A DNA stretch of 53,696 nt, from positions 1 through 53,696 of the IMG/VR virus record IMGVR_UViG_3300025450_000802, one strand, 5' to 3'. Below the pieces are notes generated by a model. That model was not told the origin of the DNA and made no database searches. It saw only the letters and a list, made by a program, of their open reading frames with translations. Positions 2,921-21,783 of the stretch are shown piece by piece; position 1 is the first letter of the stretch, and each line of letters begins with the position of its first letter. The translations under genes and the position numbers were made by a program. This stretch comes from a virus.

Positions 2921-3021
2921 TTGTAGATAAAAGGATCTCTTTTACGCAATTCTTTAAGCTTTTTACGATAGCTAATTTCTAATTTAATTTTGTACCAAAT
3001 ATTACGAAAAAATCTTATCAT
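2917..3021 (-). CDS. Small basic 34-residue protein
   Basis: Short ORF that exactly fills the space between two longer genes. ATG at 3021 overlaps the stop of the amidinotransferase gene (ATGA), and its TGA at 2917-2919 overlaps the ATG of the SGNH gene. The product is 34 residues, rich in Lys/Arg and aromatic residues, and ends KELRKRDPFIYK. Perfect coupling at both ends is strong evidence that it is translated. I recall similar very short basic proteins in T4-like marine phages, but cannot check this here. No Cys, no transmembrane segment and no leader-core pattern of a RiPP precursor. Function unknown; it could be a helical adaptor for a neighbouring enzyme. Confidence 0.72.
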   Translation of the reverse strand: MIRFFRNIWYKIKLEISYRKKLKELRKRDPFIYK

Positions 3022-4070
3022 TTGTAATCTCCATATTCATCGTCACGCACAGTATCTAATGTAGCGCAATGAGGACCACCTGATAATGTTCTACAATGAC
3101 GCATTTGAATTGGCATTACATCAAAGCCATTACTTTCTAATTGTTTAATGATATTAGTTTGTCGATTTTCTACGGCAACTAATTTGTCGCTAATGCTTAA
3201 AACATTCATACCTAACCATGGGCTAGCAGGAGCCCAGTTTTCTAAGTAAGGGGTTTCTTCAGGTTTTTCACAATAAATCTTTTTCCAAGATTTAAAGTAT
3301 TCCGGACAGTTATTTTCATTAACACGATCAGGATTTAATAATACTACACCTGGTGCTAATGGCATAATGCTTGTATCTAAGTGTACGTAAGCATAGATAT
3401 TTTCTAATATGTGTACTGTATACTTGTCACCTAAAATAGTTTGCAACCATTGTGCACCAATTTTGTTACCACTGTTGCTTACAAGATAAAATAAATCCTT
3501 ACCACACTTAACAACATTAGCAGCATCAAACGCTGGTTCAAAGTCTGTAAGTGTAGGTTTACTCAAATCTGTACGGTCATATAACTCATCTAACAATTCA
3601 GGTTTAGGAGCTGAAATCCATTTGCTACCTGCTTTAAAATATTCTTTAAAAATATTTCTATAAGCATATGTTTCAAAAAAGCGTGATCTAAGTACCATTG
3701 GAGTTTCAATAAGCATGTCACCTATTACTAACACACTATCTCTAGGACAATAGCTGTAATAACCATCAGTTGTCCAATTTGGGCTAGAATGATATTTGGC
3801 ATGATTAACAATATCAGGTCGCAATACTTTTACTCCAACACTTTCTAATTGAGTTTGAAATAAATTTAAGTCTTCTTTGGTTTCTTCTATTACCTGTGAA
3901 GGATAACTACCTCCAGGTAATTTATTAACCATGTCATAGTTTGCATAGTCTACACAGTGAATATCTTTATATTTGGTCACAGGAACTCTAGCGAACTCTG
4001 CATTACCTAGAATAACTTCTTTTAGTGTACCCCATTCCGTATTTGAATTAACTTTACTTAACATTTCCAT
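3018..4070 (-). CDS. Amidinotransferase (glycine/inosamine amidinotransferase family)
   Basis: 350 residues from ATG 4070. Family enzymes move the amidino group of arginine to an amine acceptor through a covalent Cys-amidino intermediate. Visible signatures: EWGTLKEVILG near 12-22, CPRD at 108-111, FEPAFDAAN at 177-185 (family Asp region), HLDTS with His230, and HCRTLSGGPHC at 325-335 with the candidate nucleophile Cys335. Length is near that of bacterial inosamine and glycine amidinotransferases. Start choice: an upstream open extension to 4109 uses TTG and lies inside the previous gene; ATG 4070 is preceded by GGGAGAAG, and ATG 4064 is a second candidate. Overlaps the B12 radical SAM gene by about 13 bases. 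The acceptor is unknown; the nearby aminotransferase suggests an amino sugar or amine made in the same pathway (inference). Confidence 0.88.
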   Translation of the reverse strand: MEMLSKVNSNTEWGTLKEVILGNAEFARVPVTKYKDIHCVDYANYDMVNKLPGGSYPSQVIEETKEDLNLFQTQLESVGVKVLRPDIVNHAKYHSSPNWTTDGYYSYCPRDSVLVIGDMLIETPMVLRSRFFETYAYRNIFKEYFKAGSKWISAPKPELLDELYDRTDLSKPTLTDFEPAFDAANVVKCGKDLFYLVSNSGNKIGAQWLQTILGDKYTVHILENIYAYVHLDTSIMPLAPGVVLLNPDRVNENNCPEYFKSWKKIYCEKPEETPYLENWAPASPWLGMNVLSISDKLVAVENRQTNIIKQLESNGFDVMPIQMRHCRTLSGGPHCATLDTVRDDEYGDYK

Positions 4071-5797
4071 GCTTTCTTTCTTCTCCCGTACCAGTAAGTG
4101 TTTATACAAAATTGTTTAAATTCTATATTAGGTTTAACGATTTGCTTATCGATTTCGTCTACGATATTTATATTAAGGTCAAGTAGACATTTTTTAATAA
4201 ATTTTTGCAGGTCAGCAAAAAACTGATTTCTGTTTTGTTGATATACTATACAAGACGCACTATCGTAATCCCAATATATATCATCGTCACCAAACATTTG
4301 TCTGCCCCAAAAATCATTGTTGGTTATTGTATTTTCTAATGCATTTTTGGTTGCGTAATATTGATCACGCATTAAACAATCATTATTTTTCATATACTCA
4401 TATAACAATATGTAAAAGCTACTAAGTTTCATACCTGATGATTTGCTTAAAAGATTAGTCCAGCCTAAGCTATGACTACTAATTAAAAACCATTTAAATA
4501 AAAAACATTCCAAATATTCTTCAGTAGTCAGTGTGTTAGTTGCCATTACATAATTACCGTACTCAATAGGAATATTCTTATTTCGTTTAGCAAAAAAACT
4601 TACTTGAGGTGTATAAGCAAATTTTAGTCCATGCTTTTGAATATAATCTATATCACTAAACTCAGTATTCTTGTATGCCTCTAGAGGATGCCCAAATATC
4701 CAACCCTCAGGATTAATGTCTAACACATTTAATAATCCCTCAGTCCAACTCTGTAGAGTTTCACCTGGTAACCCAACAATAAAGTCGTGATAAGTTTGCA
4801 TATTATTGTCGGCATATCGTTTACTGATTTCTGCTAATTTATCATTTGCAATATTAATTCGTTTAATGTTCATTAAGGTAGCTTTATTGCTGCTTTGTAA
4901 CGCTAATGTTACACCGCCCCTATTCATACTATCTAATATTTTACTCATTTCAAATATACGATCGGGGCTGCTTTTTGCCCAAGTAGCACTAATCTTTTCT
5001 GGGTATCCAGTAGATAGATGTTGCTGTCTTATATATTTTACCAATTCTAAATCTCGTTTGATAATGCCAAAATTAGCATCAGCAACTTCGATGTATTCGG
5101 TTTTCTTTTTAGTGAAATAATCAATTTCAGCAAATAACCTTTCATCACTAAACTGATAAACTTTACTATAATAATCTGCGCCTAAATCACAGAATGTGCA
5201 ACTATAAGGACATCCTCTGTTAGTTTCCCAAACAGGCATAAAGTTATAATCATATCTTTCATAAAAACTATCAAACAGTCCAGTTAAATAAGGACTTGGT
5301 ATCACGTTAACATCTTTTAATCGTTCACGTGTAGGTGTAAGTGTATATGTGTTGTTTTGTATATAGGCTAATCCATTAACTGTAGATAAATCTGTGTTAT
5401 TAAGTAATGCACGTAACAGTTCTAAAAGAGTTTGTTCGCCTTCCCCCCAAACACTTATATCTACATAACTATGCTCTTGTAAATAAGTTTGATCTTGTTG
5501 AGCATTAGGACCGCCTATTATAATTTTACAATTAGGGTATTTTTCTTTAATTAATTTAGCAATAGTTAAATGATATGTTGTGTTCCAACCATAATTACTG
5601 AATAATGCAACGTCGGGGTCTACAATTTTTTCAATATATAAATTTGGATCAATTTTTTCAAAATAGATATCAATTAGTTTATAATTATCTGTAATATCTT
5701 TATGTTGACTTACATATGTCCAAAGTATTCCTGAACTATAAGGCAAATACATATTGCCGTTAAAGTCTTCTTGGCATTGAAAAAAGTACACATTCAT
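4058..5797 (-). CDS. B12-binding-domain radical SAM protein
   Basis: 579 residues. The N-terminal 1-140 resembles a cobalamin-binding Rossmann domain (DVALFSNYGWN, KIIIGGPNAQ, DISVWGEGE), without a DxHxxG motif, as in many class B radical SAM proteins. The radical SAM core follows with CPYSCTFC, Cys196/Cys200/Cys203, the CxxxCxxC that binds the 4Fe-4S cluster. Later signatures include DANFGI and GLPGET, usual in the methylthiotransferase/methyltransferase-like class. Such enzymes methylate unactivated carbons or rearrange rings; the specific reaction is not deducible. ATG 5797 overlaps the TAA of the aminotransferase (TAATG). It differs in architecture from the seven N-twitch radical SAM proteins upstream and is not their paralog. 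Confidence 0.9.
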   Translation of the reverse strand: MNVYFFQCQEDFNGNMYLPYSSGILWTYVSQHKDITDNYKLIDIYFEKIDPNLYIEKIVDPDVALFSNYGWNTTYHLTIAKLIKEKYPNCKIIIGGPNAQQDQTYLQEHSYVDISVWGEGEQTLLELLRALLNNTDLSTVNGLAYIQNNTYTLTPTRERLKDVNVIPSPYLTGLFDSFYERYDYNFMPVWETNRGCPYSCTFCDLGADYYSKVYQFSDERLFAEIDYFTKKKTEYIEVADANFGIIKRDLELVKYIRQQHLSTGYPEKISATWAKSSPDRIFEMSKILDSMNRGGVTLALQSSNKATLMNIKRINIANDKLAEISKRYADNNMQTYHDFIVGLPGETLQSWTEGLLNVLDINPEGWIFGHPLEAYKNTEFSDIDYIQKHGLKFAYTPQVSFFAKRNKNIPIEYGNYVMATNTLTTEEYLECFLFKWFLISSHSLGWTNLLSKSSGMKLSSFYILLYEYMKNNDCLMRDQYYATKNALENTITNNDFWGRQMFGDDDIYWDYDSASCIVYQQNRNQFFADLQKFIKKCLLDLNINIVDEIDKQIVKPNIEFKQFCINTYWYGRRKKAWKC

Positions 5798-6444
5798 TAG
5801 GCTAAATATGGCTCAAATACTGGTTGCTTAGATAAATCTTTGTAAGTTTTACTACTACCTGTTACTGGATTGTCATCGGCTATATCTTCTAACAACAATA
5901 AACCTTTAACTGCTTCTTCAGGAGTCATATACATATGATAACCAATACATTCATAATTATCAACATCGTGCATAACTTCTTTATGACGTCCATCGTAAAT
6001 CATAGGTCTACACCAATTTACAAAGTTAATGTTATTAGTTAGTATAACACCACCGCGACCTATTTTCAATGTTTTTCTATGATGAAAACTCACACAAAAA
6101 TATGAATCTTGAACATACATGCCTTTATTAAAGCAAACAGCTCCATCGATAATGTGCGTGTTGCCCAAATTGTAGTATCCTGACCAATCTTGATCTACAA
6201 ATCGTATTTTATTTCCAGCATGAATGCATTGCATAGGTACGCTGGCATATGTATGTTTTGGGAGTGTGATAACTTGATCGGTAATGTTTAAATATTTCAT
6301 ACACAAGAATAACGCACTACTGCAACTATCTACACATACAGCATACTTTGATCCTGCATATTCTGCTAATTTGTTTTCAAATATTGTTACACAATCCCAA
6401 GGATCGTTAATGTTATATCCTTTACTTATGAGTTGGGATATCAT
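5797..6444 (-). CDS. Half-size DegT/DnrJ/EryC1-type PLP aminotransferase
   Basis: 215 residues against the usual 360-400. The N-terminal two thirds are recognisable: YAGSKYAVCVDSCSSALFL (PLP phosphate region), PKHTYASVP, IIDGAVCF (PLP ring Asp region), and SFHHRKTLKIGRGGVILTN, where the Lys of SFHHRK matches the PLP lysine of SFHxxK in sugar aminotransferases. The C-terminal small domain is missing and the protein ends soon after the MTPEEAVKGLLLLE helix. Start ATG 6444 has a strong AGGAG eight bases upstream and lies inside the end of the dioxygenase gene. No frameshift remnant follows: the next gene begins at the stop codon. It may be a genuine minimal enzyme making an amino sugar or amine, or a dehydratase-like or structural variant. 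Confidence 0.82.
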   Translation of the reverse strand: MISQLISKGYNINDPWDCVTIFENKLAEYAGSKYAVCVDSCSSALFLCMKYLNITDQVITLPKHTYASVPMQCIHAGNKIRFVDQDWSGYYNLGNTHIIDGAVCFNKGMYVQDSYFCVSFHHRKTLKIGRGGVILTNNINFVNWCRPMIYDGRHKEVMHDVDNYECIGYHMYMTPEEAVKGLLLLEDIADDNPVTGSSKTYKDLSKQPVFEPYLA

Positions 6445-7162
6445 ATGGTTCTCCTAATTCTTTATCAAACCAATATAAACTGCGATGAGGGCGATCATCG
6501 GTTTTATGTTGAGCATCACTATAATAATAAAATAATCTAAAAGTATTTCTACTCATGCCTTCAGGACAAGTTAATGGATCAGGATAACCATGAAAGCCAC
6601 GTTTATGATAACGCCATATAATTGCACGATTGAACAATGGTGGTATACGTTGAATTCGTTTTTCATTATTAAAGTCGTTGAAGTCTAATGCTCCTCCCCA
6701 TTCTTCTTTCCAATTAGGATTTAAGTAGATAATAAAACTAAGCATTCTATGCACTTTAATTTGTTCATTCCAGTTAAAGTCAGTGTGCATTTTTAAACTA
6801 TCACCTGTAAAGCTACGACTATAACCAGCACCTGTTAAATAAGGATCAGGAATTAAATCTTTTATTCCTGTAACATTGCAAATCCATTCCATACCCAATG
6901 CACTGTGCATTTGATTTACAAATTCATACGCAACTGGTGCATGTTCTACTTTTTTACATTCTTTCATGTAGCTGCCTTTGCGTGTAAACTCTGTCCAATA
7001 CTGATCAGGTATAGTTTCGCATTCATTAGCTAATTTTAATGCAAAATCTTCAGGTAAAAAGTTGTCTAAAACTATCATCGGGAATGGTGGAGTTCCAACA
7101 AATTTATTATTCAATTCTTGAAAATTACCAAAGTTATTTTTTAAATGCTTAATGATTTGCAT
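6422..7162 (-). CDS. 2OG-Fe(II) dioxygenase, prolyl-4-hydroxylase-like
   Basis: 246 residues. The Fe(II) triad is visible: MHTDF (His126, Asp128) and GFHGY (His191), followed by SRNTFRLFYYY, whose Arg205 (or Arg209) would bind 2-oxoglutarate. LSFIIYLNPNW and EWGGALDF are typical beta-strand signatures of P4H-like oxygenases. These enzymes hydroxylate protein side chains or small molecules. The gene is first on the minus strand after the divergent region at 7163-7238, with AAGGAC before ATG 7162 and an AATAAATA late-promoter-like site further upstream, so it probably heads a transcript through 1. Similar dioxygenases are common in T4-like marine phages near tail genes. The substrate is unknown; a hydroxyl it makes could be the acceptor for the downstream carbamoyltransferase (inference). 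Confidence 0.88.
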   Translation of the reverse strand: MQIIKHLKNNFGNFQELNNKFVGTPPFPMIVLDNFLPEDFALKLANECETIPDQYWTEFTRKGSYMKECKKVEHAPVAYEFVNQMHSALGMEWICNVTGIKDLIPDPYLTGAGYSRSFTGDSLKMHTDFNWNEQIKVHRMLSFIIYLNPNWKEEWGGALDFNDFNNEKRIQRIPPLFNRAIIWRYHKRGFHGYPDPLTCPEGMSRNTFRLFYYYSDAQHKTDDRPHRSLYWFDKELGEPYDIPTHK

Positions 7163-9083: not shown

Positions 9084-9739
9084 TTTAATAAGTTTTTATC
9101 TAGAATTTCTTTATATGCAAGTTTAGCAAAATCTGTATGTGCATCTAACCTATAATGATACCAACTTGTATGACTATAATTGTTACGTTCAGCCCATTCC
9201 CAATATGAAGTTTCTGGAAATAACCAATTCAATGATTCTTTCCCTGGAAAATTCATTGGCATAAAAGCATCTAAATTAACAATAGGAATATTTTTAAGCT
9301 TTGCTAACGTGTTTCCTGCAATAATGTTCTTGACTTTGTTTAATTGCCCGCGTATACCTAACTTATCAGCCATTAATCTTGCAAACAAATCATAAAAAGC
9401 CTGATGTGTTTTAGTATACTTTGATGCACTTAAGTCCATACCTTTACTAAACTGTAGCCATTCTTCTAATATTTCATCATAAATTTCAATACGTTCAGTT
9501 CCAGTCCATACAGCAATAATTAAATCATTGGGTGTTGCGTTTACTTCGTGTATCATTCTATAAATGTAATCGTTGCTCCCCCCAGGAAATCCTTTATTTA
9601 CAGGAGTATAGCCAAGCATTCTTGCTAATTGACTAGTAAAACTGTTTTCTAAGTTATACGGAGTGCAACTCCCTATACCTGGGGCTTCTATTTCACTACC
9701 CATGCTGTGGCTGCAGCCAAAGATATATGCTGTATTCAT
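9080..9739 (-). CDS. SGNH/GDSL hydrolase-like protein
   Basis: 219 residues. Block I FGCSHSMGSE with Ser10, PGGSNDYIYR as block II/III-like, VWTGTER where the block III/IV Asn would fall, and C-terminal RLDAHTDFAKLAYKEIL resembling the block V Asp-x-His. It is the third SGNH-type gene of the cluster and differs from the other two in order and sequence. ATG 9739 overlaps the TAA of the radical SAM gene upstream (TAATG), and the stop overlaps the next start by ATGA. Probable acyl esterase or acyl-transfer function; the substrate is unknown. No export signal. Confidence 0.68.
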   Translation of the reverse strand: MNTAYIFGCSHSMGSEIEAPGIGSCTPYNLENSFTSQLARMLGYTPVNKGFPGGSNDYIYRMIHEVNATPNDLIIAVWTGTERIEIYDEILEEWLQFSKGMDLSASKYTKTHQAFYDLFARLMADKLGIRGQLNKVKNIIAGNTLAKLKNIPIVNLDAFMPMNFPGKESLNWLFPETSYWEWAERNNYSHTSWYHYRLDAHTDFAKLAYKEILDKNLLK

Positions 9740-11049
9740 TAGACATTACCTTTATATAACAATTCATGTAGTTCAGGGATAGATTCACTCATACTTTGCT
9801 TACGTTTTAAATCTAACAAATCGGTATATCTGTGAAATATCTTTAATTGTTCTTCCCAATCGTCATGACGGTTTTCTTTTAATGCATTGATTGTGGCTTG
9901 TATAGCCTGCATATTGTTTTCACGTTTAGTTAACACTTTACTAGTAGGAATCCATGCTTCTAATTTATCAATAGCTTTGATTCTTACACTATCGGGTAAA
10001 ATACGAAAGTCTAAACTACGAGGATAATCATTAATTAAGAATGTAACGTGAATTTCTCGACCATATTCTAATTCTAAACTTTCTGCGTAATCAAGTAATT
10101 CAGTGATGTTTAAGATGTTATATACTTGAATAACAGGTGAGAACAACAAATTACCAACTACTTTACTTTCACAATACAATCTTACGTTTTTGTCAACTGT
10201 GTTCCAATGACTTGTACCTCTGATATATTCATTTAATGAACCATATGCGTCTACACTGATACACATCAATACACTTTTAAATTTTTCTACTAAATTAATA
10301 AAACGTGGTTTAATATTAGTCATATTGCTATTGAATACCAATTCAATATTTTGTGCTATTCCCAATTCAACACATTTTTCCATAATCCAATATACACGTT
10401 CAATCAATGTAGGTTCACCACCTGTAAAGTATAACTTAACTACGCTAGGCAACCATTCACTAACTTGTTGTAAGAATCTAGGGTCATCTTGCCATGGTGT
10501 TAAGTTGTCTACAAACTGACCCCATGTAAAGTTTTGTTTAATAAAATTACCGTCATTTTGATTTTCTAATTCAATACTTTTATATTCTTTTTGTATTTGA
10601 CTGCTATTTTGCGGTTGGCACATACGACATTTAAGATTACATAGATTTCCTAAACGAAAATCTAAGTACAAAGGTGCTTCTTCTACACGATAGTCATTTT
10701 TTATGCTACGTTCAATGCGTTGCATAATTGATTCTCCATGACCACTGTATTCAAACCAGTCACGTATATAATTAATTCGATAACTAGGAAAACCCATATT
10801 TTCTAAATCATAACAATGTTCACAACCCTTTACAGTTTCTCCGTCAAGCATCTGTTGACGAATCTTGCGCATGTGATTACTGTTCCAAGTATCAGCAATA
10901 TTATGCCCACGGTTAAGATCAAACATTGTGCCGTCATCATTTTTAAAATTGTCACGTGCAACACAACACCAGCTGGCAGTACCAGTAGGTTGTGTCATTA
11001 TATGTATCCAAGGATACGGGCAAAAGGTCTTACTATCTTTGATGTTCAT
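9739..11049 (-). CDS. N-twitch radical SAM protein
   Basis: 436 residues from ATG 11049. The N-terminal Cys-rich module has CPYPWIH (Cys10), WCC (Cys28, Cys29) and CEHCY (Cys76, Cys79), a pattern like an auxiliary-cluster twitch/SPASM domain. The radical SAM core follows: CNLKCRMC (Cys137, 141, 144) and TGGEPTL (GGEP 210-213, SAM-binding). The radical SAM part cleaves SAM to make a 5'-deoxyadenosyl radical; SPASM/twitch relatives usually act on peptides or small amines. Start choice: an open extension to 11085 uses TTG, ATG 11064 lacks an SD, and ATG 11049 has GAGA nine bases upstream. It overlaps the end of the previous radical SAM gene by 17 bases. The substrate is unknown. Confidence 0.92.
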   Translation of the reverse strand: MNIKDSKTFCPYPWIHIMTQPTGTASWCCVARDNFKNDDGTMFDLNRGHNIADTWNSNHMRKIRQQMLDGETVKGCEHCYDLENMGFPSYRINYIRDWFEYSGHGESIMQRIERSIKNDYRVEEAPLYLDFRLGNLCNLKCRMCQPQNSSQIQKEYKSIELENQNDGNFIKQNFTWGQFVDNLTPWQDDPRFLQQVSEWLPSVVKLYFTGGEPTLIERVYWIMEKCVELGIAQNIELVFNSNMTNIKPRFINLVEKFKSVLMCISVDAYGSLNEYIRGTSHWNTVDKNVRLYCESKVVGNLLFSPVIQVYNILNITELLDYAESLELEYGREIHVTFLINDYPRSLDFRILPDSVRIKAIDKLEAWIPTSKVLTKRENNMQAIQATINALKENRHDDWEEQLKIFHRYTDLLDLKRKQSMSESIPELHELLYKGNV

Positions 11050-12244
11050 GTATAATTCTCGCATATTCGGGAAAGGTTGTAGCAAAATTTTCTTCCCTGA
11101 CTTGATCTATTTTAGATGTCCAGATTAGAAATTGTTGAAAGTGATCACTGTTGTCTTGATCTTCAATGTATTTAATAATGTTTTCAAACTGATCACTATA
11201 TTTGCTGTGCATCAAATGTTCTCGTATCTTTGTTTTAACACCTGAAGGCAAACATTTAGCAGAATAATGTTCTGGTGCATAGACCATGTTCCAATGTAGG
11301 TAACAGTTGGAATATTGTGCAGCCCAATCTGCTACTTCTTCTAAATACCAAATATTAAATGCACTGACGCTACAGAAAAAAGCTACTTCAATGTTCTTTG
11401 GTCCATGTTCTAATAGGTCATTTATATTTTTATTGACTTGATTCCAAGGTGCAGGATGACGTAAATATGTGAAACGTTCACCTACCCCGTCTATGCTAAA
11501 GAACACCTGTACCTTTTTAAACTTACTCCAAGCATTATAATAACGTGACAAATCTTGTGTGCCATTGGTATTATAACTTAACAGTTTGTTTTCTGTGCCA
11601 CCAATCTCTACTAATTTGTTCAAGTATAGTGCGTGTTCTTTAAGTAACATTGGTTCGCCACCAAATAACTCAAGAGTATCAACTTTGTCTGAGATTGAAT
11701 AAAGATTGTCCCAAAATGCATTATTATCCTTGGGCCACTTTCCCATTTCAATCATACGATCAGCATGATGTTGATTGCCAATGCCACTGCGTACTTCATC
11801 GTCAGCCCATTTACTACTAGCAAAGCTGGTGCAAATACGACATTTAAGATTACAGATGTTGCCAAACTTTAAATCTAAATAATGAATCTCTGGATTGTTG
11901 ATCACGTCTGGCATACGATCTTGAAAACGAATAACTTCACGTAGACGTTTGCTGGTTAATCCTGCACGTTCTTCGTCCCAGCAATTATAACAACTTTTAA
12001 CTTGTTCATTGTTTAAAAAGTCTTTGCGTATATTTTGCATCCATTTACTAGTAAACACATCAACAATATTAACATCTTTAAAGTTAAACGGTTTTCCGTT
12101 AATATCTTTTGCTGATTCTTGTTGTACACAACAAACACTAGCTTCACCTGTGGTTTTACATTCTAAACCTAAAAAAGGCAATACGCAGAAATTTTCTGGC
12201 AAGTTTTTATCTTTTAATATTTGTTTAGCTTGTTCTGAATTCAT
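11033..12244 (-). CDS. N-twitch radical SAM protein
   Basis: 403 residues. N-terminal module: FCVLPF (Cys20), VCC (Cys38, Cys39), CYNCW (Cys85, Cys88). Radical SAM core: CNLKCRIC (Cys131, 135, 138) followed by SFASSKW, and FGGEPML (GGEP 195-198). The C-terminal DQVREENFATTFPEYA matches the end seen in the neighbouring paralogs (R..F...FPE). ATG 12244 overlaps the previous stop as ATGA. It belongs to the same subgroup as 12241-13458 and 13962-15152, with which it shares the SSxW sequence after the cluster motif and the iDkxRexxFxxxFPE tail. Confidence 0.93.
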   Translation of the reverse strand: MNSEQAKQILKDKNLPENFCVLPFLGLECKTTGEASVCCVQQESAKDINGKPFNFKDVNIVDVFTSKWMQNIRKDFLNNEQVKSCYNCWDEERAGLTSKRLREVIRFQDRMPDVINNPEIHYLDLKFGNICNLKCRICTSFASSKWADDEVRSGIGNQHHADRMIEMGKWPKDNNAFWDNLYSISDKVDTLELFGGEPMLLKEHALYLNKLVEIGGTENKLLSYNTNGTQDLSRYYNAWSKFKKVQVFFSIDGVGERFTYLRHPAPWNQVNKNINDLLEHGPKNIEVAFFCSVSAFNIWYLEEVADWAAQYSNCYLHWNMVYAPEHYSAKCLPSGVKTKIREHLMHSKYSDQFENIIKYIEDQDNSDHFQQFLIWTSKIDQVREENFATTFPEYARIIHEHQR

Positions 12245-13458
12245 AGTTTGTACTCTGGAAATGTTTTATAAAAGTCTTGTTCACGTAGTTTGTCTAGGGT
12301 GTTAGTTAAATTAATAAACTTATCCCATTGTTGTTCGTGTAAGTCTTGTTGTTTCATATAACCAATAGCACTACGATATCCATTAACTGCACGATTTGCA
12401 CCTAGTTGTTTTTCTAACCAAGATACCATTGACTCATATTGCTGTAGAAATTGATCTTTAATATGTTGCGGCAATATCTGAAATCTATAATGTTCTGGGT
12501 GTTGTAACACATTTACATCCCAATCACCGGGTTTAATTAACCCCTGATCTACCATATACATATGAAATTTAGGCATATGTAACGCATTAAAAACACTTAG
12601 TGTACAACTAATATAAATGTCAACGTTTGGCATTTCACTTTTCAATCGTTTGAAATTATCAACAAAACGTTCCCATTTAAATCCATTTCTAATATACTCG
12701 CCTTGTTCAAACATTCCATCAATGCTAGCACCAATACGTATTGGGCGTTTAAATTGTTTCCATAATTGAATTACGTCTTGATCTTTGTATTTTAATGTGG
12801 TAAAGTTAGTATTATAATTGATAGTTACATCAAGCTTATTATTGTCAATTAGATAATTTAAAATGCGATAGTGTTCTTCCATCATTAAAGGTTCGCCACC
12901 TGCAAAATATATACCTTCTACGTGTTGTAAATTAGGTTCTAATTCACTCCATAAATCGTCAACTGTGCTACGTAATCTTTGAAACTTAGGGGTATCTTTA
13001 GTTATATTACCTAATTCTATACCATCTTCATACCAACTACTACTTAATTCTGGACCGCAAGTGCGACAACTTAAATTACAAAGATTACTAAATCTTAGGT
13101 CTAGATAAACTAAACGCATTTCATCTACTGAACCATCATTGTTAGTGTTGTTTAACGCATAATCAAACCAATGATTATAATCTCTATTAGCATTAACACG
13201 CAAACTTTCATATCCTGTGCTTTCGTGTTCATAACAACGTGTACAGCCTACACTGGGTTTATCATTAAGCATATTAAGACGCAACTCTCGCATCTTTTCG
13301 CTATTCCAGACCTTTTTTAACCCTATATTTGCATCACCTATATCATTTTCATAGGGTGTCAAACAACAAGGAAACGTTTTACCATTGGGCCATACGTGCA
13401 TATGTATCCAAGGCAGAACACAAAAATGTTTGCTATCACTAACTTGTTTTTTGTCCAT
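12241..13458 (-). CDS. N-twitch radical SAM protein
   Basis: 405 residues. N-terminal module: FCVLPWIH (Cys13), PNGKTFPCC (Cys31, Cys32), VWNSEKMRELR, CTRCYEHE (Cys72, Cys75). This is the clearest SPASM-like layout in the set, but it sits before the catalytic domain. Radical SAM core: CNLSCRTC (Cys127, 131, 134) and FAGGEPLM (GGEP 187-190). The C-terminus DKLREQDFYKTFPEY is shared with paralogs. ATG 13458 lies 20 bases inside the preceding gene and the SD is weak, so translation is probably coupled. Confidence 0.93.
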   Translation of the reverse strand: MDKKQVSDSKHFCVLPWIHMHVWPNGKTFPCCLTPYENDIGDANIGLKKVWNSEKMRELRLNMLNDKPSVGCTRCYEHESTGYESLRVNANRDYNHWFDYALNNTNNDGSVDEMRLVYLDLRFSNLCNLSCRTCGPELSSSWYEDGIELGNITKDTPKFQRLRSTVDDLWSELEPNLQHVEGIYFAGGEPLMMEEHYRILNYLIDNNKLDVTINYNTNFTTLKYKDQDVIQLWKQFKRPIRIGASIDGMFEQGEYIRNGFKWERFVDNFKRLKSEMPNVDIYISCTLSVFNALHMPKFHMYMVDQGLIKPGDWDVNVLQHPEHYRFQILPQHIKDQFLQQYESMVSWLEKQLGANRAVNGYRSAIGYMKQQDLHEQQWDKFINLTNTLDKLREQDFYKTFPEYKL

Positions 13459-13957
13459 TAGTGTATTGTAAGTTTGTAAGTTTATCTTTTCTATTGTGTT
13501 TTTTCTTAATAACCTGGTACCAATCTAGTTCTTCTTTAGGTGGAGGCAGTTTAATTGCGCAGGGTGTTGTAATTCTAAATGAGCGTTCTTTTAAACTCTT
13601 TGCCCAATTTTCAAAAACACTAGCAAGCCAATCATAAAATCTTACACGCAAGCAATTGTTTTTTTGTTCTAATTCTTCAAACTTATTGATAAGGTCAGCA
13701 ATGCCCATATGTAAGTTTTCAGAAGCAATTGCTTGACGAATATTGCCTGATAATATATTAAGACTTGTTAACTTTGCTGTTTCAAAAACCCTATTTTCAT
13801 CAGTTGCTAACATATAATGTAGATAATCCCATTGTTTAAGGATAGCAGTATTTGTTTGGTCATACAATTTTTCAAGTTGATCTTTATTATAGGTTTTTTT
13901 CAATCTATAAGCAGACCAGTTTAAGTGTTCTGAGATGTAGGGCAAGGCTTCAGTCAT
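13439..13957 (-). CDS. Uncharacterised helical protein between radical SAM genes
   Basis: 172 residues, not recognised. Predicted by eye to be mostly alpha-helical and charged in the first 125 residues (for example INKFEELEQKNN), with a short Pro-rich linker LPPPKEE and a basic tail. No catalytic motif, no membrane segment and only two Cys. ATG 13957 has a strong AAAGGAGT, which itself overlaps the last codons and stop of the upstream radical SAM gene. The 3' end overlaps the next radical SAM gene by 20 bases. Its position between two radical SAM enzymes suggests an accessory, chaperone or substrate-presenting protein, which is inference only. Confidence 0.8.
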   Translation of the reverse strand: MTEALPYISEHLNWSAYRLKKTYNKDQLEKLYDQTNTAILKQWDYLHYMLATDENRVFETAKLTSLNILSGNIRQAIASENLHMGIADLINKFEELEQKNNCLRVRFYDWLASVFENWAKSLKERSFRITTPCAIKLPPPKEELDWYQVIKKKHNRKDKLTNLQYTNGQKTS

Positions 13958-13961
13958 AATT

Positions 13962-15152
13962 TTACTCCTTTAATAATTTATTTAATTCTGGAAATACTTC
14001 TGCAAACTTTTCATCACGACTATTATCTAACCATTGTGTATATTGTAAAAATCTTTCAACTGCAACACTATCACTGGGCTTACTAAGAGTTTGCTCTATG
14101 TTATGTAGATCCCAAGGTTGCATAACTTTACTACAATCTATAATTATTTGTTTTTTTATATTTTCGGGCAACGTCCATGGGCTTAGATAACTAGGATCAT
14201 AACACCAATTCAAGTGTACGTGCAACCCCATTTGATTTTTAAAAAAGTCATAAAATTCTGGGAGATATAATGCACTGTAGGTACTAATAGTTTGTACGAT
14301 ACTTAAGTCAATAAAATCATAACCTTGTAACTTCTTTAAGTTATTTAATGTTGTATTCCAATCGCTGCCTGAGCGTATATAACTATTGCGTTTGTCTAAA
14401 TCATCAATACTGGCACTAACACTAATACTTTTAAATTGACTCCAAAGATTAACTAATTCTTCAGGTACTTGTGTAAGATTAATATTATACCATAAGTCTA
14501 CTTGATGGTGCAAGCCTCGTTTAATTAACATTTCCAAATATCGAAAATGCTTTTTAACCATGGTAGGTTCGCCACCATTGACATAAATGCGTTTAAGACC
14601 ATTGCTCTTTTCTAACAATTCATCCCAAAACTTATCTTGTTCGAACCATTCTCCTTTTTCAATGTTACTATAATCTGTAACAAAGTTTAGGTCTTTTTGT
14701 AATTTTTTATATTCAGCGATCCATTTACTGCTGCTAACAGGATTACAAGTGCGGCAGCGTAAATTGCAGATGTTGCCAAGTCTGAGTTCAATAAAACGAA
14801 AATCAACATTGACAGTTCCATCGGGTAACATGCTATCGATGATAACTCTGCTATCTTGTAAATATCTTTCATTTTCTTCTAACCTCTTAGATTTAATACC
14901 TGCACGTTCTTCGTCATAGCAACGCTTACATGCATTGGGTTCAATACCATCACGCATCTCACAGCGAGTTTTCTTATAGAAATCACTGTTCATCACACTT
15001 TCAATACTATCTTTATTAAGACTTAATATTTTATCATTAGTACGTGCGTTACTAGCTGCATGGGTATGATCGCTAATACAACAAAGTGTTGCGCCACCAT
15101 GTGGATGTGTAGCCAAATGAGTAAAGGGCAATACGCAGATTTTATCAGTCAT
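13962..15152 (-). CDS. N-twitch radical SAM protein
   Basis: 396 residues. N-terminal module: ICVLPFTH (Cys6), HGGATLCC (Cys24, Cys25), CKRCYDEERAG (Cys75, Cys78). Radical SAM core: CNLRCRTC (Cys129, 133, 136) with NPVSSSKW, and NGGEPTM (GGEP 193-196). The C-terminal LDNSRDEKFAEVFPE matches the paralogs at 11033-13458. ATG 15152 overlaps the end of the preceding unknown gene by 8 bases. Its closest relative in the window appears to be the 11033-12244 product (shared EERAG.KSKRL after the CxxC), pointing to local duplication. Confidence 0.93.
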   Translation of the reverse strand: MTDKICVLPFTHLATHPHGGATLCCISDHTHAASNARTNDKILSLNKDSIESVMNSDFYKKTRCEMRDGIEPNACKRCYDEERAGIKSKRLEENERYLQDSRVIIDSMLPDGTVNVDFRFIELRLGNICNLRCRTCNPVSSSKWIAEYKKLQKDLNFVTDYSNIEKGEWFEQDKFWDELLEKSNGLKRIYVNGGEPTMVKKHFRYLEMLIKRGLHHQVDLWYNINLTQVPEELVNLWSQFKSISVSASIDDLDKRNSYIRSGSDWNTTLNNLKKLQGYDFIDLSIVQTISTYSALYLPEFYDFFKNQMGLHVHLNWCYDPSYLSPWTLPENIKKQIIIDCSKVMQPWDLHNIEQTLSKPSDSVAVERFLQYTQWLDNSRDEKFAEVFPELNKLLKE

Positions 15153-16173
15153 GAATTAATGTCCCGTCATCATTTGTTATATAGTATCCTAAAAACACTG
15201 GAGTTGTAGAAATAATTTTTTCATAAAAATCTTTACCAGTAATTATTTGGCCATCAATAGAACCTAAAATATGTCTTCCCGGAGTATACATAGCATCTGT
15301 TGTATCAATATAATTACCTAAATTATTTTGTTCTATCCAATGATAAAATGATCGTCTTCCATCATACATATCTGCACGTTTGGTATTATCAAAATGCATG
15401 AATATATAATCTGTTAATATTGTTTGTGGTTTAACCTCGCCCCTGCGAACTAATTCTAAATCGTTAGTACAAAAACAAGAATTTAAATCTTTGCCTACTG
15501 TACTAAAGTCAGCAACCAAATCTCCACCGCAGGGTAAGCTAAAGTTTAGATAATCAATTGGTTCTAATTGTGTATAGTTAGTACTATTAAATTCAATAGT
15601 GTTATTACGCACAGACATGTTAAACACGCTATCACGTTCAACATTAGCCCATTCTTCTGGTACTTTAGGTGTGCGTTCAATAAAGTGCACAAGGTTGTTT
15701 ACTTTCTCTAATAAAAAATATTTTTCAACATAAACAGGATCGCCGTTTGGATCGTTTGGATCAGATTTTAAATCAATTGCCTCTTTTTCAAATCTAAAAT
15801 GCAATTCGTTTAATTTGTTTAACTCTGGATCCATTACGTCAGTTAAGTTTAAATGCAATGCAGTATCCATTGGAATACCTAATTGGTTAAGACGGTTGAT
15901 TGTATTATTCATAGCCACACGTGCTTGTGCCAATAACTCAGGGGTAACTGAAGGATAATAATTTGTATGAAAGATCATTTTAGAAATGTCAAAAGAATTA
16001 CGCAATCGTAAGAATTGTGACACGAACTTTTTAGTAAGCGGAAAGTTATTTAATGTATAAGTCAACGTTTGAGTTGGTGACATATTTAATAATTCAGTTA
16101 CTGAATGCCCTTTCACTGCGTTTGTTGTATGATAATCATTTTCGCCTGGGCCGAATACTGCTTTAAGTTTCAT
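15145..16173 (-). CDS. Uncharacterised protein, tandem paralog B
   Basis: 342 residues, family not recognised. It is clearly paralogous to the next gene upstream (16185-17201). Both start MK.xxVF, share PLTKKF, KLNELHF.FEKE and EKVNN.VHFIE, and share an exactly conserved GGDLVADFSTVGKDL at about 219-233, followed by CxCTND.ELVRRGEVK. Both end with PGRHILG and GIITGKDFY, then DDGT. The strict conservation of the central block against divergent flanks suggests an active or binding site; the CxC could bind metal. No radical SAM, PLP or nucleotide motif. SD AAGAGAT before ATG 16173. Flanked by N-twitch radical SAM genes, it could be their substrate or partner protein (inference). Confidence 0.85.
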   Translation of the reverse strand: MKLKAVFGPGENDYHTTNAVKGHSVTELLNMSPTQTLTYTLNNFPLTKKFVSQFLRLRNSFDISKMIFHTNYYPSVTPELLAQARVAMNNTINRLNQLGIPMDTALHLNLTDVMDPELNKLNELHFRFEKEAIDLKSDPNDPNGDPVYVEKYFLLEKVNNLVHFIERTPKVPEEWANVERDSVFNMSVRNNTIEFNSTNYTQLEPIDYLNFSLPCGGDLVADFSTVGKDLNSCFCTNDLELVRRGEVKPQTILTDYIFMHFDNTKRADMYDGRRSFYHWIEQNNLGNYIDTTDAMYTPGRHILGSIDGQIITGKDFYEKIISTTPVFLGYYITNDDGTLIHD

Positions 16174-16184
16174 AATTTTATCTC

Positions 16185-17201
16185 TTAATAAATTGGAGTT
16201 CCATCATCTTCGCTCAAGTAACATCCTAACAATGCAGGAGTACGTGAAATAACATAGTCGTAAAAATCTTTACCTGTAATAATACCTTGATCGTTTTTCC
16301 CTAAAATATGTCTTCCTGGATTATATCTAGGTTGATTATAATCAAGATATTGATCAACTTTATTATCTTGGCACCATTTATAATGTCTAGATTTCATTAT
16401 TGGATCAAGTGTGAAGTTATTAAACATTAAAAATACATAATCAGTTAAAAAACGTTGCTGCTTTACTTCTCCTCTACGTACCAATTCCATGTCATTGGTG
16501 CATGAGCAAACAAACAAATCTTTACCTACTGTACTAAAATCAGCTACTAAATCACCACCAAGTGGTTGTCCAAAATCAGCGTAATCTATATCTTGTAATT
16601 CATAGTATTTGGCTTTGCTATTAGTGCGAATAGCCATGTTTAAATTGCTTATTTTAGTTATGCTATCCCATTTATCACGTTGCGGAGTTAACTCAATAAA
16701 GTGAACTACGTTATTGACTTTTTCAAACAATTCATACAATCGTTGATAATTTGAACCTACACTGTCATCAAATTCTAACTTGATTAACTCTTTTTCAAAA
16801 ACAAAATGTAGTTCATTTAGTTTATCATGTTCTGGTTCATACACATCATTATTAAGAAATAGATTGTCATCAATTGTATAACCATATGTTCTTAATTCAG
16901 TTAGTGTTTCATTCATTTCTTTTTTGGCTTGTAGTAATGATGTTTCACTAACATTTGTATAGTAGTTATATCTATAATCTAAAATGTCTGTACCGTCTTT
17001 TTCTTTAAAGTTTTCAGCCTGCTGTTTTCTATACTCAGGCCACAAATTTAAAAACTTTTTAGTTAATGGTAAATCATTAAAACTATAAGTTAATTTTGTA
17101 TTATTAGGATTATCTTTAATATCCATAAAGTTACGTGTATACGCAACATTTGATGTAAAAAAATCCGCTTTTCCTTGTGTAAAAACTACATTAAATTTCA
17201 T
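16185..17201 (-). CDS. Uncharacterised protein, tandem paralog A
   Basis: 338 residues from ATG 17201 (MKFNVVF), which overlaps the stop of the upstream radical SAM gene as ATGA. An open extension to 17222 uses TTG and would start inside that gene. The sequence aligns end to end with paralog B, including the invariant GGDLVADFSTVGKDL and CSCTNDMELVRRGEVK, and the C-terminal PGRHILG...GIITGKDFY. Rich in Asp, Asn and aromatic residues; no signal peptide or membrane helix. The two copies have diverged well outside the block, so both are probably kept under selection. Function unknown. Confidence 0.85.
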   Translation of the reverse strand: MKFNVVFTQGKADFFTSNVAYTRNFMDIKDNPNNTKLTYSFNDLPLTKKFLNLWPEYRKQQAENFKEKDGTDILDYRYNYYTNVSETSLLQAKKEMNETLTELRTYGYTIDDNLFLNNDVYEPEHDKLNELHFVFEKELIKLEFDDSVGSNYQRLYELFEKVNNVVHFIELTPQRDKWDSITKISNLNMAIRTNSKAKYYELQDIDYADFGQPLGGDLVADFSTVGKDLFVCSCTNDMELVRRGEVKQQRFLTDYVFLMFNNFTLDPIMKSRHYKWCQDNKVDQYLDYNQPRYNPGRHILGKNDQGIITGKDFYDYVISRTPALLGCYLSEDDGTPIY

Positions 17202-18589
17202 GGTATTTCTCTTTTCCACCAAGCTAATAATTCTGGATCAAGGCTATAAATTGTCTCAATGTTTACTTTATCTTTACGAATAGCGTTTAATTGCGTTTGA
17301 TAGTGTCTACCATTTTTAAATTGTTCATTATGTATATCAGGCCATTGTTCTGCAAACGTTGGTCTGTTCTTCATCTCTTTTAAAGTATTTACTAATGTGT
17401 ACTGTTTACGTGTTGACCTTGGTTCCATGTATTCTAACAATTGATCAATATGTCGATCTAATACGTTACGTGGCCAAGCAAATGGACTAAACACAATATC
17501 AGGATGAAATGCAAACATAATTTTAGTTTCTATCTTAACATCTAATTCTATACTTAAATCAAACAAATCTTTAAGACTAAACATGCCAGGACCCGTTATA
17601 GTTAAATCTAATAGCATTCTGTCTTGTCCACCGGGCAATGTTAATCCTTCTTTAAAGTTATTTAACCATTGCTCCCAAACAATACCCTTGCGTATAAATT
17701 CAACTATTTCTCCTGTGCCATCTATACTAGCACACATTAGCCAATCTTTAAATAGTGGTAAGTACTCATACAAGTTTTTACCAAAGTATTTTGTACGACT
17801 TAGATTACTGTTATAACGCAAGTAACAATTTTTAGCGCTGCCATTCTTAACCATTTCTTCTAATGCCCACCAATGTATTTCATACATCAATGGTTCGCCA
17901 CCTACCCAATAGCATTCTTCAACTATGCCGCGACTAATAGCATCACGAAATTCAGGTTCAACTACTTCAACTTGAAATTTTTGCATTTTAGCTTTAACTT
18001 CAGGAATCATAAATGGTTGCCATTTAGGTGACCACATATTATGTTGTTTCTTTTCAGCTTCCCAACTACTGCTTAATTGCTCACCGCACATTCTGCATTT
18101 AAAGTTACAAAGATTGCTATAACGATAATCAAATGATATAGGTTCCATTGTAGTATACCCTGTATCATCGGTTTTGTCAAAACATTCATCAATTTTATCA
18201 ATAAACAAATTACCAGTAAACCAACGACGGTAGTTACTTACACTAAGTATATCATCGTTACAGACATCACATTGTGGAATACGTTCGCCGCGCATTAATT
18301 TAACACGTATGTCACGCATATATTCACTGTTCCAGTGTTCCTTTAAACTTACTGGATTAAAATCGTCTGCTTCTGTTTTACTTTCAGTTACCTTACCGTA
18401 CTTTTCATCGTTGCTACTATCAATATACTGTTTTTGGAAACTATGTTGTTCTCTGCTAGCGCAGCACAATCTTCGTTCACCTTGAGGGCTAATATATGTA
18501 TGAGTCCAAGGCGCTGTACAAAATACAGGATTAGGATTATTTTCTGCAGGACTACCATGTTCCCAAATTGGTATAATTCGCTTACTCAT
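17198..18589 (-). CDS. N-twitch radical SAM protein
   Basis: 463 residues. N-terminal module: FCTAPWTH (Cys24), LCC (Cys42, Cys43), EHWNSEYMRDIR, CDVC (Cys107, Cys110), with an insertion between the CC and CxxC pairs compared with the shorter paralogs. Radical SAM core: CNFKCRMC (Cys161, 165, 168) with QLSSSWE, and VGGEPLM (GGEP 230-233). The C-terminal third is divergent and lacks the FPE tail. Starts at ATG 18589, overlapping the previous gene by 8 bases (ATGAGTAA), and ends over the start of unknown paralog A, which links the two genes functionally. Confidence 0.92.
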   Translation of the reverse strand: MSKRIIPIWEHGSPAENNPNPVFCTAPWTHTYISPQGERRLCCASREQHSFQKQYIDSSNDEKYGKVTESKTEADDFNPVSLKEHWNSEYMRDIRVKLMRGERIPQCDVCNDDILSVSNYRRWFTGNLFIDKIDECFDKTDDTGYTTMEPISFDYRYSNLCNFKCRMCGEQLSSSWEAEKKQHNMWSPKWQPFMIPEVKAKMQKFQVEVVEPEFRDAISRGIVEECYWVGGEPLMYEIHWWALEEMVKNGSAKNCYLRYNSNLSRTKYFGKNLYEYLPLFKDWLMCASIDGTGEIVEFIRKGIVWEQWLNNFKEGLTLPGGQDRMLLDLTITGPGMFSLKDLFDLSIELDVKIETKIMFAFHPDIVFSPFAWPRNVLDRHIDQLLEYMEPRSTRKQYTLVNTLKEMKNRPTFAEQWPDIHNEQFKNGRHYQTQLNAIRKDKVNIETIYSLDPELLAWWKREIP

Positions 18590-20135
18590 TGATTCCTAAC
18601 TCATCTTTCTTAGTATTCCAACCATGTGCTACTTCATCACTTACATATCCTGACTCAGTTGTAGCAGGATCTCCGCCAAGTTCAGCAATGGTATTAACTT
18701 CGTCACGATAGTTTGATGTAAGAATTTCTTGTTCTGTAGGAACAGGAACATCAATGCTATCTAACCATTCTACATATTCTTGTGGGAAAGTTTTACGAAA
18801 GTCTTTACCACGGCGAACATCATATTGCAAGTAGAAATTTTTAAAATCATTCCATAATTGAGGTTGTTCGCTTGTATTACGATGTGGGGTTTTAATAACG
18901 TCAAGATAATCAACTAAACGTTGTACGTGTGCGATTTCCATGTCAGTAAACAATTGTACGCCATGTTTATCTTTTTCATTACGTGCAACTACATTATTAA
19001 GCCATTTCTCAATCTTTTCTTTATACATAGTTTTAATATGTTCGGGAAGAATAGCTGGACTTTGAAAGCTAGGGAAACGCAATAGATTTAATGTCATTGT
19101 AGGATAACGTGCGCCATATTTGCGTTTAATCTCAATCATTTCATCCATGAACTCTGTAATGCTTGCTAAACACAAACCATTAATAGTCATCATAATATGC
19201 AATGCTTTTAAATTACCTTCATTGATAATACGATGAATGTTTTGTTTCCATTGATCATAAATCATACCGTCACGAATATAATCAGCTTGTATGCCTAATG
19301 CTTCCTGACTAGTGTAAATTTCAAAGTCTGGTACATAGTGACTCATTTCGATAAGTTTATCCATTAATGCTTTTTTAGGCACTAAATTGCTATTCATAGC
19401 ATAGCGCAAACGTTTGGCTTTATCTGGATTTTCTTTAAACCAATTAAATAGTTTCCAAACGCCAGCAGCCATTAATGGTTCTCCACCTGTAATGCGTATT
19501 TCTTCTAAGTTGTCTTGTAGACCTTCTTCCCACCAACGCCAAAAAGCACGTATATAAGGATTTTCATCATCATTGTCATAACCCTTAGCCCATGGTGCGG
19601 TATCAACAAAGTGACCACGACCATCGCTTTGAATATTTCTATAAGGGCCGAACTTCTTAATATCTTTTACCCATGTAGTTGAGAATGCAGGATTACAATA
19701 ACTACAAGCAAAGTTACAAGTACGGTCAAAGCTAATCTCTAATGTTCTTAACATTACGTTAGCTTCCCAAGGCATCTTAGCTGCTGCTATAAGATCAGAA
19801 TCACGAAAGATTTCAGTTTTATAAACACGATCACTGATATTTTCACGACCAATATCTTCTACTTTCCAACAGTATTCACATTCATTAGGACGATCACCTT
19901 CTTGCATATACTTGCGCATAAGCTTTTTGTGTTGAGTATTGTGAATAGCACTTGGATTTGCTTCTAATTCACTTGCATCAATATAATGTCCAGGTGGATG
20001 GTGACAACTAGCAGTTTGTCCATGTCCTAACCAAATCGTAGCATTGTACCATTTAGCTCCACAAAAAGTTTCACTAATGGGATCAATAACTCTTATCTTG
20101 TAATCTTTAAATCCTTCGCCGGGTTTTCTAGCCAT
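18582..20135 (-). CDS. N-twitch radical SAM protein, variant KW/CHHPP subgroup
   Basis: 517 residues from ATG 20135; a longer reading to 20159 uses TTG. The N-terminal module differs from the others: FCGAKW (Cys25) and ASCHHPPGH (Cys44) in place of the CC pair, then CEYCW (Cys86, Cys89). Radical SAM core: CNFACSYC (Cys140, 144, 147) with FSTTW, and TGGEPLM (GGEP 217-220). All key positions coincide with those of the next gene upstream, marking a tandem pair. The C-terminal tail after about 440, including FRKTFPQEY, is longer than in the paralogs. Seven bases separate it from the preceding stop; the SD (GTGAG) overlaps that stop. Confidence 0.92.
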   Translation of the reverse strand: MARKPGEGFKDYKIRVIDPISETFCGAKWYNATIWLGHGQTASCHHPPGHYIDASELEANPSAIHNTQHKKLMRKYMQEGDRPNECEYCWKVEDIGRENISDRVYKTEIFRDSDLIAAAKMPWEANVMLRTLEISFDRTCNFACSYCNPAFSTTWVKDIKKFGPYRNIQSDGRGHFVDTAPWAKGYDNDDENPYIRAFWRWWEEGLQDNLEEIRITGGEPLMAAGVWKLFNWFKENPDKAKRLRYAMNSNLVPKKALMDKLIEMSHYVPDFEIYTSQEALGIQADYIRDGMIYDQWKQNIHRIINEGNLKALHIMMTINGLCLASITEFMDEMIEIKRKYGARYPTMTLNLLRFPSFQSPAILPEHIKTMYKEKIEKWLNNVVARNEKDKHGVQLFTDMEIAHVQRLVDYLDVIKTPHRNTSEQPQLWNDFKNFYLQYDVRRGKDFRKTFPQEYVEWLDSIDVPVPTEQEILTSNYRDEVNTIAELGGDPATTESGYVSDEVAHGWNTKKDELGINE

Positions 20136-20142
20136 ATATTTC

Positions 20143-21783
20143 TCACTGTTTAATTGCAATGTTCATACATTCTTTGTAATACTGTTGCATTTCGGGGAAT
20201 GTATCATTAAATTTAGTACCACGTCTACGATCATACTCTTTAATAAACAAATAAAAATTCATTTTATTAGTAAGTTGCTGATCTACTGGTAATTCTTGTT
20301 TCATTATAGCAAGATCACGTTTTAATTTAAGAATTTCATAAGGCTTAAATCCCTCAAAAGTCTCAAGATAATCGTCACCTTGTACGTTTTCCTCCATATA
20401 CTTTAACACACGTTCTACGTATTTAATACCCCACTCACCTGCATTTTGTACACTAAACCAAGGTGGGTAACGTAATAATGGGATATCAAACCAAATACGT
20501 TGAAAGGGTTTATCATTTGCTTGTGCGCGTCCACCAAATTCTTTACGTAGTTCAAGAATCATTTCCATAAACTTCTTTAAACTAGGTATGCTCATAATAT
20601 TAAATGTATTAATAAAACTCACACTAGTTAATTTAGTTTCACGTAAGAATGTGCGAACATTTTGTAATAAACGATCAAAATCTAATCCAGTACGCATGTA
20701 TTCAGCTTGCTCACCAAATCCATCTAAACTTACAAACAACATAAAGTGCTTGTAAGCCTTGTCATTATAATTATATATGTAAGTAAAACTATTATCGTCA
20801 GTTTCTAAACATTGCCCAACTTTAGGAAATGTTTGTTTAATTTCACTACGTTCAATGCTAGGCAATGAACTGTTGTGATATTTTTTCATGTCACTGCCAA
20901 TAATATAGTTTTGCCATGTTTGCCAAGGCGTGCCGTCTTTTGGATCAGGTACATAACATTCTGTTGAATACTGTACATTGTCTAAACGTTTGACCTTTTC
21001 AATAAACTTATCAAATAGTTTTTGATCGGGTGGGCACATATTACTAGTAATGCTAAGTTCTAATTCTTTATGTGGGTGTTCATAGACATAATCTAATACT
21101 TTAAAAGTATTAACGTCCATTAATGGTTCACCACCTGTCATACGGAAAACGCGCAAGTCATAATAAACATTAGGCCACCATTGCCAAAATGCCTGTAGAT
21201 AAGGATTATCTTTTGTAGAAACTTTTAATGGCATCATGCCGCGCTTTTCTAATGATTCAATATGATTGTGCTCCATATTAGAAAGTTTATATGGACCATG
21301 TTTTTCAATCTCATCTTGCCAAGTAGTACTTAAATGCGGACTACAATACATACATTTAAAATTACAGGCTTGATTAAAATTTACTTCTACATATCTCGGT
21401 GTAACGTCATAATCAAAACTATTGTTAGTAACTTCATCAAATGTAGGAGCAGCCCACCATTCGCTACTACGATAATGACGATCACTTAAATGATTGCCCT
21501 CAGCATCTTCAATTTTCCAACAATAACTACATCCTTCAGGACGTGTGCCTTCTAGCATCTGTTTGCGTTCATACATTTTAAATTTTGTATTATGTAATGC
21601 TGATGGATTATCTGTTAATTCTTCTAATGGAATTTTATGAGTGGGCGGATGATAACAGCTTTGTGTTAATCCACTTGGTAAATGTAAACTTACTTGTGTC
21701 CATTTAGCCAAACACATAGAGGGGCTGACCTTATTTAAACGGTCGCGCATATCTCTTGCTGATTGATCGTATTCTCCGCTCAT
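20143..21783 (-). CDS. N-twitch radical SAM protein, variant KW/CYHPP subgroup
   Basis: 546 residues. N-terminal module: MCLAKW (Cys24), QSCYHPPTH (Cys43), CSYCW (Cys85, Cys88). Radical SAM core: CNFKCMYC (Cys140, 144, 147) with LSTTW, and TGGEPLM (GGEP 217-220). An extra segment of roughly 80 residues between about 250 and 335 lies inside the radical SAM barrel compared with its partner at 18582-20135. Ends NDTFPEM-type tail. ATG 21783 overlaps the TAA of the preceding gene (TAATG). Same chemistry class as its partner; substrate unknown. Confidence 0.92.
   Translation of the reverse strand: MSGEYDQSARDMRDRLNKVSPSMCLAKWTQVSLHLPSGLTQSCYHPPTHKIPLEELTDNPSALHNTKFKMYERKQMLEGTRPEGCSYCWKIEDAEGNHLSDRHYRSSEWWAAPTFDEVTNNSFDYDVTPRYVEVNFNQACNFKCMYCSPHLSTTWQDEIEKHGPYKLSNMEHNHIESLEKRGMMPLKVSTKDNPYLQAFWQWWPNVYYDLRVFRMTGGEPLMDVNTFKVLDYVYEHPHKELELSITSNMCPPDQKLFDKFIEKVKRLDNVQYSTECYVPDPKDGTPWQTWQNYIIGSDMKKYHNSSLPSIERSEIKQTFPKVGQCLETDDNSFTYIYNYNDKAYKHFMLFVSLDGFGEQAEYMRTGLDFDRLLQNVRTFLRETKLTSVSFINTFNIMSIPSLKKFMEMILELRKEFGGRAQANDKPFQRIWFDIPLLRYPPWFSVQNAGEWGIKYVERVLKYMEENVQGDDYLETFEGFKPYEILKLKRDLAIMKQELPVDQQLTNKMNFYLFIKEYDRRRGTKFNDTFPEMQQYYKECMNIAIKQ

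Follow-up and report, generated by a model that had tools for sequence, protein, structure and literature searches.

The tandem gene pair at positions 15145–17201 of IMGVR_UViG_3300025450_000802, a virus record of 53.7 kb analysed at its full length (the window), encodes two members of a wider family of phage proteins. In our preferred reading, to which we give about an even chance, the pair is a duplicated, exchangeable accessory gene of a radical SAM (rSAM) modification cassette and probably encodes an enzyme.

The tandem pair and its rSAM operon

The pair is located within a run of seven N-twitch rSAM genes that occupies about 12 kb on one strand of the window (9739–21783). These genes are lettered here from A (upstream, 20143) to G (downstream, 9739), and all of them score above the 170-bit cut-off of the NCBIfam profile N_Twi_rSAM (NF033640), at 297–422 bits. 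The features are as follows:

20143–21783, minus strand: N-twitch rSAM A (NF033640)
18582–20159, minus strand: N-twitch rSAM B (NF033640)
17198–18589, minus strand: N-twitch rSAM C, 463 aa, flanking the pair (NF033640, 306 bits)
16185–17201, minus strand: paralog 2, 338 aa from the ATG at 17201 (ORF and pairwise alignment with paralog 1)
16515–16559, minus strand: GGDLVADFSTVGKDL block of paralog 2, residues 215–229 (pairwise comparison)
15145–16173, minus strand: paralog 1, 342 aa (ORF, family profile match, AlphaFold2 model with pLDDT 86)
15634–15948, minus strand: predicted helical-bundle insertion of paralog 1, residues 76–180 (secondary structure of the model; VIA matches to 76–180)
15484–15528, minus strand: GGDLVADFSTVGKDL block of paralog 1, residues 216–230, with the family-invariant DFxTxGKDL inside
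13962–15152, minus strand: N-twitch rSAM D, 396 aa, flanking the pair (NF033640, 356 bits; 30 IMG/VR relatives)
13439–13957, minus strand: protein without assigned family, 172 aa, same operon (ORF; no significant Pfam or PHROGs match)
12241–13458, minus strand: N-twitch rSAM E (NF033640)
11033–12244, minus strand: N-twitch rSAM F (NF033640)
9739–11085, minus strand: N-twitch rSAM G (NF033640)

The preliminary description of this DNA had proposed tandem paralogs among radical SAM genes, coupled by ATGA to one of these genes and overlapping the next, and the analysis bears this out. Both ORFs are present, with 154 identical residues in 328 aligned columns (47%; BLASTP E 6e-92). For paralog 2 the ORF tool reported 16185–17222 (minus strand, 345 aa) with a TTG start at 17222; the ATG at 17201 was taken as the natural start, and it overlaps the stop codon of rSAM gene C as ATGA. 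Paralog 1 shares 8 nt with the start of rSAM gene D. Neither protein matched the N_Twi_rSAM profile (N-twitch, CxxxCxxC), i.e. the pair are not rSAM proteins themselves.

The conserved stretches that had been pointed out in the pair were also recovered, namely the block GGDLVADFSTVGKDL, all 15 residues of which are the same in both paralogs, and the CxCTNDxELVRRGEVK stretch. When the matched columns of the two paralogs were shuffled 20,000 times, an identical run of at least 15 residues arose in 30 cases, which makes a chance origin unlikely, and the codons differ synonymously at 6 of the 15 positions of the block, which rules out recent gene conversion as its source. Judged from these sequence comparisons, the identity of the block is therefore kept by selection at the protein level.

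One side of the window carries a 6378-aa ORF for a virion structural protein (28688–47824, matching the family phrog_10938) as well as genes of the baseplate wedge, and these structural genes are consistent with a T4-like phage as the source. A B12-binding radical SAM protein (4058–5797), a partial DegT-type aminotransferase (5797–6444) and a 2OG-Fe(II) oxygenase (6422–7162) are encoded in a row elsewhere in the window. Over 21 kb, a second record, IMGVR_UViG_3300000439_000045, matches the window at 99.86% identity, and a related record of 68.9 kb holds 17 matches to N_Twi_rSAM, some of them below the cut-off.

Membership and evolution of the family

The family was confirmed by profile in 26 IMG/VR records, several of which are near-duplicates of each other and many of which are short fragments; E-values of the tblastn confirmation were computed on candidate stretches only. 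A degenerate DNA pattern for DFxTxGKDLxxC retrieved 21 IMG/VR stretches, every one a true family member; earlier peptide-pattern searches had given two loci only. Since the IMG/VR pattern searches require the exact motif, the family is under-sampled.

No match was obtained when 15 members were scanned against Pfam and PHROGs and the pair against NCBIfam (best E about 0.008), or when seven members were compared by tblastn with 50,697 phage records. A tblastn match in Vibrio phage 172P1 (E 0.3) is a different protein without profile similarity to the family, and six matches of the DFxTxGKDLxxC pattern in bacterial and archaeal genomes were judged to be due to chance, leaving no real cellular member. 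The literature search found no paper on the family. The earlier suggestion of a new family is thus backed by the empty Pfam, PHROGs and NCBIfam scans together with the 26 viral records, and at the level of sequence this is a real, conserved, unnamed phage protein family absent from these three collections.

Across 20 members with 22–35% identity, about 26 residues are invariant, i.e. (paralog 1 numbering) Tyr73, Asn89, Asn122, His125, Phe128, Glu129, Asn159, Val162, His163, Glu166, Tyr208, Asp222, Phe223, Thr225, Gly227, Lys228, Asp229, Leu230, Thr236, Asp238, Leu241, Gln250, Trp279, Gly299, Arg300 and Pro325. They include DFxTxGKDL and two Asn-His-Glu helices, and many of them are polar (Tyr, Asn, His, Glu, Asp, Thr, Lys, Gln, Arg, Trp), with no cysteine among them; Cys233 of the CxCTND motif varies in the family, and the block cysteine is replaced by alanine in some members.

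In the maximum-likelihood tree of 22 rows, the two window proteins pair together (96/94) with member L042 as their sister (96/96), which indicates that the pair arose by a single tandem duplication within the clade that they form with L042.

Genomic context of the family gene

Operons were compared across the records by best match to the window rSAM genes A–G, with FAM denoting the family gene. The window order is A-B-C-FAM-FAM-D-E-F, and the corresponding orders are A/B-B-FAM-C-D-E-F (L111), A, B-FAM-C (L112 and L113), A-B-FAM(fused), E-D (L114), A-B-C-FAM (L116) and FAM-D (L117). The family gene is found in the same rSAM operon (A-B-C-D-E-F) in four branches of the tree, in slots that differ. 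It directly adjoins an N-twitch rSAM gene in six of the eight records that have such genes (P 0.001 for random gene placement; P 0.006 once the record of L113, a close relative, is left out). In a seventh record, that of L116, just a 109-aa ORF resembling the N-terminal half of the family stands between the family gene and the rSAM gene. The family gene there (1507–2363) is seemingly split into ORFs of 109 and 170 aa, either by a real break or by an assembly error.

That the family gene repeatedly occupies adjacent slots of a single operon, in four branches of the tree, argues, together with the common strand and the starts and stops overlapping with those of rSAM genes, against the pair being an unrelated accessory gene, e.g. 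for counter-defence, that happens to lie in an island of T4-like phage genomes which is hypervariable and rich in rSAM genes. That explanation, which would agree with the hypervariability of the island in the passages of PMC7029224 and with the occurrence of the family in contexts lacking rSAM genes, is in our estimation quite improbable.

The linkage dissolves from both sides. An N_Twi_rSAM match above the cut-off was found in 11 of the 26 family records and in none of the other 15, the longest of which are 57 and 87 kb; the records are fragments and many of the rSAM-less ones are short, so these absences weigh little. Conversely, of the 30 records in which rSAM D was found, only 3 contain the family. 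L007/L118 and the other records most closely related to the window keep rSAM B, C and D, with B and C 75–78% identical to those of the window, and have a different 410-aa rSAM in the C-D slot and no family member. rSAM-type proteins of 410–413 aa hold this slot at L118 6104–7336 and also in L007, L009, L010 and L032.

This dissociation in both directions disfavours the family as an obligatory substrate, and it bears on the proposal that the paralogs are proteins modified in the GGDLVADFSTVGKDL/CxCTND region by the neighbouring N-twitch rSAM enzymes. The tight coupling of the pair between rSAM C and D and, in several lineages, the recurring position of the family between rSAM B, C and D are what such substrates might display; the pair, however, is devoid of a leader/core arrangement and of a hypervariable tail, and the alanine found in place of the block cysteine in some members likewise speaks against this proposal, which we regard as improbable. 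Co-occurrence with N-twitch rSAM genes in other genomes, the lack of which the preliminary description had named as refuting its proposal, held in part, being seen as operon linkage in four tree branches and not as an obligatory association.

The family gene also has neighbours of other kinds. In L102, L103 and L105–L107, a group without rSAM genes, it comes after PhyH-like oxygenase genes; upstream of these, L105 carries SufC, SufD/B, SufS and FeS_assembly_P genes together (2818–6151), and L102, L106 and L107 have similar-looking genes there. In L117 a 2OG-Fe(II) oxygenase gene precedes the family gene. L038, L048 and L056 encode fusions of the family with a class I methyltransferase (Pfam was run on L048 only), and in another record the methyltransferase is a separate gene neighbouring the family gene.

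Predicted structure

Paralog 1 and the distant member L068, about 26–28% identical to each other, were modelled with AlphaFold2 at mean pLDDT values of 86.0 and 86.5, respectively. Foldseek returned no significant match in the PDB for either model. With VIA, cyclophilins headed the full-length matches of one model and were among the best for the other, i.e. 5a0e for one model (Z 7.8, 139 of 165 residues aligned, rmsd 3.8) and 2mvz for the other (Z 8.8, 133 of 146, rmsd 4.0), as well as 3s6m (Z 8.4, 139 of 163 residues), where by the statement of VIA itself a Z of 7–8 is the typical best score for models without a clear match. Since two separate models agree and the order of strands and helices fits, the family fold may be a cyclophilin-like eight-stranded barrel with a helical bundle of about 100 residues that follows the third barrel strand as an insertion; the call is kept tentative because the Z scores are near the background of the tool. 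Matches of the bundle to pectin methylesterase inhibitor and talin were set aside for function, such bundles being common. The family profile gave no cyclophilin up to E 10 among PDB sequences and no match to any solved enzyme; matches to 1kcf and an ABC transporter (E 0.09–0.65) were judged to be due to chance.

In the model of paralog 1, the helical insertion holds the invariant residues Asn89, Asn122, His125, Glu129, Asn159, His163 and Glu166, and the inserted helices are predicted to bear two Asn-His-Glu faces. The DFxTxGKDL loop and the Gly-Arg strand are placed by the prediction in the barrel part.

The cyclophilin matches could also be taken to mean that the family proteins catalyse no reaction themselves and, as cyclophilin-like binding or folding proteins, present a substrate to enzymes of the rSAM, oxygenase or methyltransferase type. 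A small single-domain protein coupled to enzymes and in some members fused to a methyltransferase would suit this role, which we consider possible but rather doubtful given the absent sequence match to cyclophilins and invariant residues rich in His, Glu, Asp and Lys, as is typical of active sites.

Proposed role

Of the two options originally offered, enzyme or protein substrate, the former is the better supported. The polar invariant residues, the methyltransferase fusion and the high-confidence predicted fold point to a probable enzyme, and the substrate option is disfavoured by the family records without N_Twi_rSAM and by the flanking rSAM genes that persist without the pair. The invariant polar residues could alternatively serve in binding or folding.

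As an exchangeable accessory enzyme, the family protein would act as a tailoring enzyme on whichever glycan, peptide or small molecule is the target of the rSAM, methyltransferase, 2OG-oxygenase and sugar-type genes, and its gene would be gained and lost as a cassette of the phage host-recognition region. The His/Glu helices may make the enzyme metal-dependent. Taken to its full extent, the model would describe a new class of metalloenzymes in which a cyclophilin-type barrel is combined with a helical bundle, a metal is held by the two Asn-His-Glu faces and the enzyme is a partner of several rSAM proteins in a phage pathway acting on a glycan, peptide or small molecule; we think this unlikely as a whole.

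Open-water T4-like phages carry up to 17 rSAM matches per contig, and the family is a second, non-rSAM component of the same operon, so that this recurrent gene offers a handle on what the rSAM pathway makes.

Comparison with known systems

The family models have in common with the cyclophilin (PPIase) fold, e.g. PDB 2mvz, 3s6m and 5a0e, the order b1 b2 a1 b3 (insert) b4-b7 a2 b8, with 133–139 residues aligned in two independent models. They differ from it in the helical insertion, in the lack of a sequence match and in Z scores near background.

Nine proteins in BFVD are clearly related to the family model in structure, and every one of them is an uncharacterised phage protein. Among them, proteins of uncultured Caudovirales (A0A6J5TBJ9, A0A6J5KUF4 and others) are predicted to fold in the same way (Foldseek E down to 2.7e-16, TM up to 0.71), with no function assigned to any. 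A protein of about 300 aa from Agrobacterium phage Atu_ph07 (BFVD A0A2L0UZJ4, probably AUZ94948.1, an assignment made by the 300-aa length and VGR motif only) is a weaker match (Foldseek E 4.8e-8) with a VGR segment; unlike the family, it superimposes poorly (rmsd 16) and has no GKDL, and a search of Atu_ph07 with the family profile gave no match.

RiPP-type precursors or substrates of rSAM enzymes co-occur with their maturase, whereas the family does so in 11 of 26 records and in 3 of the 30 with rSAM D, all counted on fragments.

The nearest parallel in gene content comes from T4-like phages with many rSAM genes. The passages of PMC7029224 and PMC5332604 that concern them do not describe the present family; they report on a T4-like genome that carries 12 rSAM genes (PMC5332604) and on the host-recognition cluster of pelagimyophages, which contains both rSAM cassettes and glycosyltransferases (PMC7029224). 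By analogy with these passages, the island of the window may have the same role in host recognition as the pelagimyophage clusters.
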